This document shows, in pieces, positions 43,198-56,019 of a stretch of 57,407 nt of DNA. The stretch spans positions 1-57,407 of the forward strand of contig QZIR01000067.1 in the NCBI GenBank assembly GCA_003604975.1, written 5' to 3'. The notes beneath the pieces were generated by a model, which saw only the letters and a program-made list of their open reading frames with translations, was not told the DNA's origin and did no database searches. Position 1 is the stretch's first letter, and each line of letters opens with the position of its first letter. This DNA comes from Desulforudis sp. (GTDB lineage Bacteria; Bacillota; Desulfotomaculia; Desulfotomaculales; Desulforudaceae). The translations under genes were made by a program, and so were the position numbers.

Positions 43198-44676
43198 ATG
43201 GAACAGCTCGACATCTTTCGCGACATTGCGGAACGCACGGGCGGGGATATCTATATCGGAGTGGTCGGGGGGGTACGGACCGGCAAGTCGACATTCATAA
43301 AAAGGTTTATGCAATTGCTGGTAATTCCCAACATCAAGAACGTCCACGACAAGGAAAGAGCCCGGGATGAACTCCCGCAGAGCGGAGCCGGTCGTACCGT
43401 GATGACCACGGAGCCGAAGTTTGTGCCCAATGAGGCCGTCGAGATCCTGGTGAACCAGAACCTGAAACTGAAGGTTCGTTTAGTGGATAATGTAGGCTAC
43501 AGAGTAGAAGGGGCTTTAGGGTACGAGGAAGAGGACTTTCCCAGAATGGTATCCACCCCGTGGTTTGAGGAGCCAATTCCCTTTGAAGAGGCCGCGGAGT
43601 TCGGGACCCGGAAGGTGATCACCGAACATTCCACCATCGGTCTGGTGATCACGACGGACGGGAGCATCACGGACATTCCGCGCGAAAACTACGTCCAAGC
43701 CGAGGAGCGGGTGGTCAATGAGCTCAAGGAGATTAACAAGCCCTTTATCATGATCCTGAATTCGACGCACCCGAACGCCCCGGCAACGGTTGAATTAGCC
43801 CAGGAACTGCAGCAGAAGTACGATATCCCGGTCCTTCCGCTGGACTGTGCCGAGCTAAGCCAGGCGGACATCATGAACATCCTCGAGGAGGTCCTGCTTG
43901 AGTTCGGTGTCACCGAGGTCAAGATTGACGTCCCGCGCTGGATCCGGGAACTGCATGTCAGCCACTGGCTGCGTGACAAGTTTGAATCCGCCGTACGCGA
44001 TGCCGTTCGTCGGGTGCACCGGGTCCGGGACATTGGCCCTGCCACGGAGGTCCTCGCTGAGAATGACTTTGTAGCAGAGGTGAGCCTGTTAGAGGTCAAT
44101 CTGGGCACCGGTACCGCCACGGTGGACATGAAGGCCAAAGCGGGACTGTACTACCAGGTGATCCAGGAGCAGACCGGCTTTGACGTCACCGGAGAGCACG
44201 ACCTGTTCCGGCTGGTTTCGGACCTGGCAGTGGCCAAGCGTGAGTATGACAAGGTGTCCGCCGCGCTGCGGGAAGTGCGCGAGACCGGCTATGGTGTGGT
44301 CACACCTAAACTCGACGAGATGAACCTGGAGGAGCCGGAGCTGATCAGGCAGGGTAATCGGTTTGGCGTTCGCCTGAAGGCGAGTGCGCCGTCACTCCAC
44401 ATAATCAAGGCCGACATCACCACCGAGATCACGCCGATCATCGGGACGGAGAAGCAGTGCGAGGAACTGGTCCGTTATATACTTGACGAATTTGAAGACA
44501 ATCCCAAGCAGATCTGGGACTCCCAGATCTTCGGCAAATCGCTGCACGACCTGGTGCGCGAGGGGATTCAGAATAAGCTGCACCGGATGCCTGAAAACGC
44601 TCAGGTGAAACTGCAGGAGACCCTGCAGCGGATTGTGAACGACGGAAGCGGGGGTCTCATCTGCATTATCATTTAA
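43198..44676 (+). CDS. spoIVA: Stage IV sporulation protein A (spore coat ATPase)
   Basis: The 492-residue protein is full length for SpoIVA. The Walker A is VGGVRTGKSTFIKRFMQ near 23-39. Characteristic segments are GAGRTVMTTEPKFVPNEAVE, VRLVDNVGYRVEGALGYEEE, TTDGSITDIPRENYVQAEER, and the C-terminal amphipathic SGGLICIII, which docks on the forespore membrane via SpoVM. SpoIVA polymerises with ATP to form the base of the spore coat. This gene shows the organism is, or recently was, an endospore former. Confidence 0.97.
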   Translation: MEQLDIFRDIAERTGGDIYIGVVGGVRTGKSTFIKRFMQLLVIPNIKNVHDKERARDELPQSGAGRTVMTTEPKFVPNEAVEILVNQNLKLKVRLVDNVGYRVEGALGYEEEDFPRMVSTPWFEEPIPFEEAAEFGTRKVITEHSTIGLVITTDGSITDIPRENYVQAEERVVNELKEINKPFIMILNSTHPNAPATVELAQELQQKYDIPVLPLDCAELSQADIMNILEEVLLEFGVTEVKIDVPRWIRELHVSHWLRDKFESAVRDAVRRVHRVRDIGPATEVLAENDFVAEVSLLEVNLGTGTATVDMKAKAGLYYQVIQEQTGFDVTGEHDLFRLVSDLAVAKREYDKVSAALREVRETGYGVVTPKLDEMNLEEPELIRQGNRFGVRLKASAPSLHIIKADITTEITPIIGTEKQCEELVRYILDEFEDNPKQIWDSQIFGKSLHDLVREGIQNKLHRMPENAQVKLQETLQRIVNDGSGGLICIII

Positions 44677-44706: not shown

Positions 44707-44736
44707 AGAAACCCTTCTCCTAAGAGAAGGGTTTCT
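44707..44736 (+). terminator. Terminator hairpin after spoIVA
   Basis: AGAAACCCTTCTC (44707-44719) and GAGAAGGGTTTCT (44724-44736) form a perfect 13-bp stem with a CTAA loop. The T tract is embedded in the stem; little follows it. Confidence 0.75.
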
Positions 44737-44773
44737 ATGTTAAGGAGCCCGTAATGACCTTCGCTCCGGCCGC

Positions 44774-45132
44774 CATAGATTTCTACGTAGCCTATGACCA
44801 TCTTTCGACTGCCATAGACCATTACGAAACCGATGACAACCTTTGCTCGACCAAAGCAGCTACCTTGAGAGCCACTGACAATCTTTCGACTGCCAGTAAC
44901 CCTGTACCTCGTATAAACAAAGCTCCGGCAACTACTTTGATCTTAGCTCGAACAATATGCCTCTCTTGTGACCCGGGAACGATCTTTCGACCGTTCCCGA
45001 GCCTGCCAAGAGACATATTGCTCTGCCCTCTGGCCGATATCGAGCCAATATTTGACCCGATATCAACCTTTGGCCGACTACTACCGAGCCTTTATTGACC
45101 CGGTAGCAGTCTTGGCTCGGCCATTACGAACC
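44774..45132. repeat. Array of hairpins with alike loops and differing stems
   Basis: This gene-free stretch is filled with short inverted repeats. Stems: CATAG/CTATG/CATAG (44774-44817), CTTTG/CAAAG (44841-44856), ACTG/CAGT (44874-44897), CAAAG/CTTTG (44918-44939), CGGGAACG/CGTTCCCG (44974-44999) nested inside CAATATG..CTCTTG/CAAGAG..CATATTG (44953-45020), GATATCG/CGATATC (45036-45064), CTACCG/CGGTAG extended by GACT/AGTC (45076-45111). Loops are of two types: ATCTTTCGAC with flanks, near 44800, 44881 and 44982, and AGCC-x-TATTTGACC, at 45043 and 45087. CCATTACGAA recurs at 44819 and 45121. Stem sequences differ but remain complementary. A 114-codon frame crosses it but shows no protein signature. 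Confidence 0.8.
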
Positions 45133-45314
45133 CTTGTATCGTAGTATAACCACGAACCGCCAAATTATCAGGGGAGCTTGATACAATATCTGGCTGTTCT
45201 CGTTTGAATAGAAGTCGGCTGTCCTGGGAAAAAATATAATTGTAGTTATCTAGTTATTAATGAATTCGTTTTTGTACATACTAGGTTCTAACAAAAGCCA
45301 GAGGAGGGAAAAAC
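45133..45314. other. Gap before small winged-helix gene
   Basis: This AT-richer stretch probably contains the promoter of the gene at 45315. I see no convincing sigma-A pair. The AGGAGGG at 45302-45308 is that gene's ribosome site. Confidence 0.3.
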
Positions 45315-45602
45315 ATGATCAGCAGTCCGGCTACCCTTACGGAGTATTTTCTCCAGGTCGATCACCGTCTACCGGAGGAAGCCACCCGCGTGCTGAAAGC
45401 GCTTGGCGATCAGGGAAGAATGAACAAGGAAGAACTGTCCCTGACCTCCCGGGTAAAAAGAGCGGTACTCGACCACATCATCATGCAGTTGTACGCCCTT
45501 GGCCTCGTTGATGTAACGGCTGAAGGAAAAAGCAAGATCTGCAGCCTGACCAGACTGGGCTGGGAATTTGTCGCCCTTAAGGACGACCGGATTATTCAAT
45601 AG
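45315..45602 (+). CDS. Small winged-helix-like protein
   Basis: The 95-residue protein is unrecognised at family level. Its pattern (LTEYFLQVDHRLPEEATRVL, KEELSLTSRVKRAVLDHIIM, QLYALGLVDVTAEG, ICSLTRLGWEFVAL) looks like a compact winged helix with a C-terminal wing, as in small transcription factors. ATG 45315 lies seven bases after AGGAGGG. It follows the hairpin array and has its own terminator, so it is a single-gene unit. Any link to the array is speculation. Confidence 0.6.
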   Translation: MISSPATLTEYFLQVDHRLPEEATRVLKALGDQGRMNKEELSLTSRVKRAVLDHIIMQLYALGLVDVTAEGKSKICSLTRLGWEFVALKDDRIIQ

Positions 45603-55348: not shown

Positions 55349-55545
55349 AGATCAGTAAACCCTACTGGGCCCGTGACCTTCAATGAAGTTCCGAACCAAC
55401 ACCGATACATTGGGAGCCCGGCTCTGGGTATGGCTCGCAGGCCCCCCTGGTGGGGAAGCGAAAAGTATGCAGGAGGGCACCCCCCTGTTTTGCGCAGGGT
55501 TCGGGGGACTTCATAGGGGTGACGGCTACGGTGGGGTTTTCTCAT
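55349..55545 (+). ncRNA. ssrS: Structured RNA, probable 6S RNA
   Basis: About 200 bases fold into one long rod. The closing stem joins 55357-55378 and 55518-55539 with pairs or G-U at 19 of 22 positions. After a small internal loop a second stem joins TGAAGT..GAACC (55384-55397) and GGTTC..ACTTCA (55498-55513). The interior has a large open region and GC-rich hairpins. A T run follows the closing stem. Rod shape, size and a location directly after aspS (where Bacillus subtilis has a 6S RNA gene) point to 6S RNA, which binds sigma-A RNA polymerase. SRP, tmRNA and RNase P signatures are absent. Confidence 0.55.
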
Positions 55546-55920: not shown

Positions 55921-55938
55921 TAAACTGAGGTTTACCAG

Positions 55939-56019
55939 GAGCCGTATACGAGTCCGTACGTACGGTTCTGTGAGAGGGATAGCGCCGCAAGACATTGTTA
56001 CGGCGTTACCCTACTCGAT
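55939..56019 (+). mobile_element. Group II intron 3' remnant (domains V and VI)
   Basis: Domain V is readable at 55939-55968: lower strand GAGCCGTA with the catalytic AGC, upper stem TACG/CGTA, a two-base bulge, and returning TACGGTTC. TGTGAGAGGGAT then leads to a domain VI stem, CGCCG (55983-55987) with CGGCG (56001-56005), and the end CCCTACTCGAT typical of intron 3' ends. The distal loop is AGTC and the upper stem is short, not the usual GAAA-capped form, and no intron reverse transcriptase is next to it. It is a dead 3' fragment. Confidence 0.75.

Follow-up and report, generated by a model that had tools for sequence, protein, structure and literature searches.

The window analyzed, i.e., the whole 57,407-nucleotide stretch of contig QZIR01000067.1 of Desulforudis sp., harbors spoIVA and a small winged-helix gene on its plus strand, and the region between them had been characterized in a preliminary description as an array of hairpin units. 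The minus strand at positions 44745–45133 was found instead to form a single closed, multibranch RNA of 389 nt with a 15-bp closing helix (P1) and five related arms (P2–P6), its transcript being expected to run from ∼45135 to a terminator at 44707–44736. Each of the six helices contains a wobble triad, i.e., three successive pairs G·U, G–C (C–G in P4), and U·G. The features of the locus are as follows:

44707–45136, minus strand: whole predicted transcript, with ends predicted from the promoter and terminator positions and the fold (start ∼45134–45136)
45163–45170, minus strand: −35 element TGATAATT of a forespore-type promoter, located with a position weight matrix from 103 copies (score here 20.0)
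45142–45151, minus strand: −10 element GGTTATACTA, 11 nt from the −35 octamer, located with a position weight matrix
45119–45133, minus strand: P1 closing helix, 5′ strand GGGUUCGUAAUGGCC, from covariation consensus and fold; triad pairs 45132/44746, 45131/44747, and 45130/44748
44745–44759, minus strand: P1 closing helix, 3′ strand GGUCAUUACGGGCUC, from covariation consensus and fold
45076–45111, minus strand: arm P2, a 15-bp hairpin, from consensus and fold; triad 45100–45098 with 45087–45089
45032–45068, minus strand: arm P3, a simple hairpin, from consensus and fold; triad 45057–45055 with 45043–45045
44950–45023, minus strand: arm P4, two-tier (outer helix, 4 × 4 internal loop, inner helix), from consensus and fold; flipped triad 45002–45000 with 44971–44973
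44849–44942, minus strand: arm P5, from alignment and consensus, with an outer helix, a length-variable insert (44904–44926), and an inner hairpin P5b (44869–44902) capped by C(GAAA)G; triad 44901–44899 with 44870–44872
44768–44841, minus strand: arm P6, two-tier with a 4 × 4 internal loop, related to P4 and capped by C(GAAA)G, from consensus and fold; triad 44820–44818 with 44789–44791
44707–44736, minus strand: intrinsic terminator hairpin of 13 bp with a 4-nt loop, followed by TGTTATT, from the minus-strand fold, with equivalents in order-level copies
43198–44676, plus strand: spoIVA, convergent neighbor (context), with Pfam SpoIVA domains
45315–45602, plus strand: small winged-helix (TFIIE-alpha-like) gene, divergent neighbor (context), with a Pfam PF02002 match barely above the cut-off

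All the stems and loops named in the preliminary description were present between spoIVA and the winged-helix gene. GATATCG/CGATATC corresponded to P3, CTACCG/CGGTAG to P2, ACTG/CAGT to P5b, CTATG/CATAG to the inner part of P6, and CGGGAACG/CGTTCCCG to the inner part of P4, nested in the longer imperfect stem 44950–45023 as had been noted. The loop ATCTTTCGAC, reported to recur three times, occurred exactly three times in the window, always within the RNA locus; on the minus strand it reads GUCGAAAGAU, i.e., a C(GAAA)G tetraloop together with the pairs that close it. The description had proposed that shuffled sequence of equal composition giving as many stems would speak against it. The 389-nt minus strand folded at −226.5 kcal/mol as compared to −117.1 ± 5.3 kcal/mol for dinucleotide shuffles (z = −20.8), far beyond chance, and none of the 100 shuffles was as stable. 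Folding of the whole intergenic region with its flanks gave −294 kcal/mol (z = −12.2) for the minus strand and −185 kcal/mol (z = −5.3) for the plus strand, and the plus-strand fold, clearly weaker in energy, z, and pairing, was rejected. Alternative folds had been envisaged for the CATAG/CTATG arms; this ambiguity was resolved, as the centroid of the core RNA (44745–45133) was identical to the minimum-energy structure and to the consensus of 101 sequences. Pairing of the P1 5′ strand with a P1-like segment in the basal part of P6 was also considered; it looked plausible for some sequences and was rejected because others (e.g., L064 and L088) do not retain the complementary letters.

Homologues were detected in most of the 100 relatives searched at the DNA level, and 89 full-length or nearly full-length copies were gathered and verified by profile. 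A GTDB pattern search followed by a profile check added named carriers, namely, Pelotomaculum, Desulforudis, Desulfofundulus, Desulfotruncus, Desulfoscipio, Carboxydocella, Thermosediminibacter, and a Thermoanaerobacterales bin, while chance matches (e.g., Rhodobacteraceae and Sphingobium) were removed by the profile search. The non-pathogenic carriers include Desulfofundulus australicus, Desulfoscipio geothermicus, and Carboxydocella thermautotrophica. The sole pattern match in IMG/VR (L154) was not a homologue, and a viral origin was dropped. The conclusions are based on an alignment of 101 sequences (A2); a second alignment (A1), which mixes strands as its loci are in genome orientation, was used for terminators only. 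At least one compensatory double change was observed at 108 of the 141 predicted pairs, so that the other outcome named in the preliminary description as speaking against it, homologous loci lacking such changes, was not seen. Two or more Watson–Crick types were found at 92 pairs and three or more at 26. Standard pairs occupied 98.25% of 13,940 cells on the minus strand (alignment excluding the truncated L093), as compared to 74.6% on the opposite strand, 87.2% with shuffled columns, and 31–41% with slid partners in the same columns; the slid control favors the structure, which was derived from the same alignment, whereas the strand contrast and the compensatory changes are independent of that. 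The functional strand is the minus strand because about one-fourth of the paired cells are G·U, which cannot form on the plus strand. With its 389 nt, 141 predicted pairs, and 108 compensated pairs, the RNA belongs among the large structured bacterial noncoding RNAs, which are a kind rather than a family. The RNA gene and its predicted fold can be regarded as well established, with hardly any doubt. A 114-aa plus-strand ORF (44754–45098) overlapping the RNA was rejected as coding sequence, since covariation accounts for the sequence instead. Spurious ORFs overlap the RNA locus.

Among 30 further members found by the model, P1 retained 14–15 of its 15 pairs despite changed sequence in 27; the span of 311–340 nt in some of them may reflect pairing with the P1-like strand in P6 and not the true end. 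A strongly diverged candidate (L164 in genome G039, E = 0.0026) carried a forespore-type promoter and the GAGCCAAGA junction, and its P1 was not found. This case indicates that the model misses divergent members, and the carrier counts are therefore lower bounds.

The complete wobble triad was present in 85–93 of 100 sequences for each helix, and all six were intact at once in 62 of 100. The junction strands (GAGCCAA, GGCCAAA, GGCGGGCA, GAGCUAA, GAGCAAA, and GUAGCGUA) are short and purine-rich, with bases mostly 90–100% conserved. The terminal loops of P2–P4 vary in length and sequence, P5b and P6 bear C(GARA)G caps, and the P5 insert is both the longest single-stranded part and the most variable part of the RNA. 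When a covariance model of P2–P4 was applied, it also recognized this RNA in its second half (E = 4e-11); hence, the arms are related modules. In L079, L080, and L094, from genus g2 of the family to which the window belongs, the entire inner part of P4 is lost and the remainder kept, a natural deletion which suggests that the P4 tip is dispensable in that lineage. A GAAA-tetraloop 11-nt receptor was sought in P5 and rejected, as the CCUAAG-like letters vary and, judged by eye, do not face UAUGG.

Upstream of nearly every copy, the arrangement GNATAnnn, a spacer of 11 or 12 nt, and GGnCATAATA was found, which we take to fit the consensus of both sigma-F and sigma-G. A matrix trained only on the promoters of the RNA was run over the upstream regions of SASP genes, the textbook forespore genes, in the same bacteria. 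It scored 23 of 30 such regions above the 95th percentile of random windows and 5 above the 99th percentile, and the matches showed the same spacer as the RNA copies at a near-constant distance from the gene. As judged from sequence, the RNA thus has the sigma-F/sigma-G type promoter expected of a forespore-specific RNA, and it is likely transcribed within the forespore by RNA polymerase carrying sigma-F or sigma-G. In many copies, a TTACCA-like motif (e.g., ATTTACCACTTATAATT) lies just 5′ of the −35 element and is possibly a candidate binding site for a regulator.

An intrinsic terminator follows P1 within 60 nt in 98 of the 102 order-level copies as compared to 23% of random sites. Among 30 more distant members, a simple scan located such a terminator in 16, a figure lowered partly by uncertain 3′ ends. 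The neighbors differ by lineage and include spoIVA, ileS, spoVT, and many singletons. The setting between spoIVA and the winged-helix gene holds at the locus in the window, yet spoIVA is the neighbor only in some lineages, adjoining the RNA at 12 loci of the set while most copies lie elsewhere. On the downstream side, the first gene of 100 aa or more ran in the opposite direction in 50 of the 74 cases. In view of these varied neighbors and opposed downstream genes, the RNA is not a leader; with its own terminator and promoter-like signal, it constitutes a stand-alone gene.

The distribution was searched with a covariance model of the arms P2–P4 only (R1) and not of the full-length RNA. The RNA was detected in 84 of the 113 class genomes and in 152 of the 398 genomes sampled from the phylum. 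It is carried by more than 200 of the genomes sampled, nearly all of them from spore formers, and the carriers span more than 60 families by our own count of the table, with many matches below E = 1e-20. In the 398 genomes, the RNA was present in 148 of 334 SpoIVA-positive genomes versus 4 of 64 SpoIVA-negative ones (Fisher p = 3e-10, with kinship ignored); put the other way, SpoIVA was present in 148 of 152 carriers versus 186 of 246 non-carriers. Among the four carriers without a SpoIVA match, three genomes are incomplete (61–80%) and the fourth is in 280 contigs. Two matches, L261 and L264 (G188), lie in an assembly of 280 contigs without a SpoIVA match, which may lack sequence. A more sensitive search of 40 of the 186 SpoIVA-positive, RNA-negative genomes returned one weak match, and given these 186 genomes, the RNA is not a universal spore component. 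It is probably a hitherto unrecognized working part of spore formation. Genomes contain several copies, with up to eight model matches, some of them from one molecule. The dispersed copies in G090 and G095 are 98–99% identical, possibly owing to gene conversion or recent duplication; several near-identical copies would fit a need for dosage but also recent duplication. Tandem or closely spaced pairs were observed at L041 (G093) and L100.

The preliminary description had recognized no named family in this form, and the search of both strands of the locus against Rfam release 15 likewise gave no family at gathering scores; a permissive search to E = 10 yielded sub-threshold matches only, the best at 22.3 bits against a cut-off of 48.4. 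No published description of the RNA was found in the library of open-access papers that was searched. Nearest in behavior are CsfG and Bvs196, stand-alone Bacillus RNAs for which forespore expression under sigma-F and sigma-G has been reported (PMC9147052, PMC3574147). Bvs196 is 294 nt long, and for CsfG the fragment associated with Hfq is given a length of 136 nt and conserved loops rich in CU (PMC9147052, PMC3574147), as compared to 389 nt here; the closed five-arm fold and wobble triads of the new RNA are absent from the descriptions of these RNAs, on which the comparison is based. Nearest in kind are OLE, ROOL, GOLLD, and the raiA motif. Like the new RNA, OLE, ROOL, and GOLLD are large, heavily structured, supported by covariation, and of mostly unknown function (PMC12286853), but ROOL and GOLLD are tied to phages, whereas searches of phages and plasmids did not return the new RNA, which has a forespore-type promoter and no Rfam match. 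The raiA motif RNA (ModT), whose deletion in Clostridioides difficile lowers sporulation frequency, is likewise a broadly conserved structured RNA of Bacillota (PMC11706538); no Rfam match to it was obtained at the new locus. 6S RNA is also structured and acts in trans, as the new RNA would, but differs in fold and sequence, and a genuine, separate 6S RNA gene (RF00013, 89.5 bits) is present in the window at 55356–55541 on the plus strand. The RNA was filed as a new family within an already recognized broad kind, the large structured bacterial RNAs, marked by forespore-type control and the sixfold wobble triad.

The explanation that we favor overall, and consider reasonably probable, is that of a stand-alone gene for a large structured RNA, transcribed in the forespore by sigma-F/sigma-G RNA polymerase, which would act in trans through its folded shape and not by antisense pairing. 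Each of the six helices would present the same wobble triad, and a compact scaffold would arise from the triads, the GNRA caps, and the conserved junctions together, binding several protein copies or packing with other copies of itself and thereby sequestering or organizing a component of the developing spore. The triads stay G·U where G–C would pair better, which suggests specific recognition by protein copies or RNA helices, although folding kinetics or RNase avoidance could also conserve wobble pairs; that the full set of six triads is intact in no more than 62 of 100 sequences is a point against the explanation. Given the gene, its fold, and forespore expression, we put scaffolding or multi-site binding at about an even chance. 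The regulatory or multi-protein-binding RNA among the roles first suggested for the hairpins is still a live reading. A more specific proposal, that the ∼400-nt RNA is made only in the forespore and that its six equivalent triad sites assemble an RNA–protein or RNA-only particle in the dormant spore, which would be a new type of spore component in more than 60 families, is tentative and somewhat doubtful.

Self-assembly into a dimer or cage, with no protein needed, has a precedent in OLE, ROOL, and GOLLD (PMC12286853). GNRA caps and nearly invariant purine-rich junctions are typical of tertiary or intermolecular contacts, and several copies per genome, some 98–99% identical, fit a high dosage, but no conserved kissing loop is visible and the P2–P4 terminal loops vary; such an RNA-only particle seems unlikely, if the strongest of the rivals. 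Less likely still is a decoy in the manner of 6S or CsrB RNA, i.e., a nucleic-acid mimic titrating RNA polymerase or another regulator in late sporulation. The six repeated identical sites and several gene copies would suit it, whereas an open-promoter-like bubble as in 6S RNA is lacking and a true 6S RNA is encoded in the same window; it is moreover a special case of multi-site binding, inseparable from it by sequence. A forespore antisense RNA pairing with mRNAs, as proposed for Bvs196 in Bacillus, is slightly less probable again. The known Bacillus forespore RNAs are thought to work so (PMC9147052), and the P5 insert and junctions are unpaired. However, most of the molecule is helix, no conserved unpaired stretch exceeds ∼8 nt, and the P5 insert, which is the longest part left single-stranded, varies more than any other; conserved letters sit in helices, junctions, and caps and the terminal loops of P2–P4 are variable like the insert, a pattern that speaks against a conserved antisense seed.

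The two remaining readings concern the DNA. Multiple copies, some near-identical or tandem, would be expected of a mobile or selfish repeat with palindromic arms, but the mobile elements and scattered insertion sites that mark such repeats were not found, no phage or plasmid matched, the same neighbors (spoIVA, ileS, and spoVT) recur across genera, place-matched copies are as alike as paralogues or more so, and every copy keeps promoter and terminator; we consider this very improbable. Even less credence is given to an element acting as DNA, be it a cruciform, a recombination site, or a nucleoid site, and to a 3′ antisense element of spoIVA, in spite of the adjacency to spoIVA here and at the dozen loci of the set, as the G·U pairing is strand-specific (98% versus 75% of cells paired) and most copies are elsewhere. 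Of the selection on RNA or cruciform structure proposed from the stems, the RNA part stood and the cruciform part was not supported, and a recombination, replication, or chromosome-organizing role was set aside in view of the strand-specific pairing, the promoter, and the terminator.

Endospore formation is among the best-studied bacterial developmental programs, yet the components identified in it so far are almost exclusively proteins. A conserved RNA of this size, controlled in the forespore manner and shared by more than 60 families, would represent a new class of spore part and raise the testable question of what use a folded 400-nt RNA is to a spore. The wobble triad in six helices offers a concrete handle for finding the partner of the RNA, which also supplies a new noncoding RNA family for genome annotation. 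Elsewhere in the window, a group II intron domain match at 55937–56019 on the plus strand, just above threshold (43.5 versus 40 bits), follows the 6S gene, and three tRNA genes are clustered at 2378–2748 on the minus strand.
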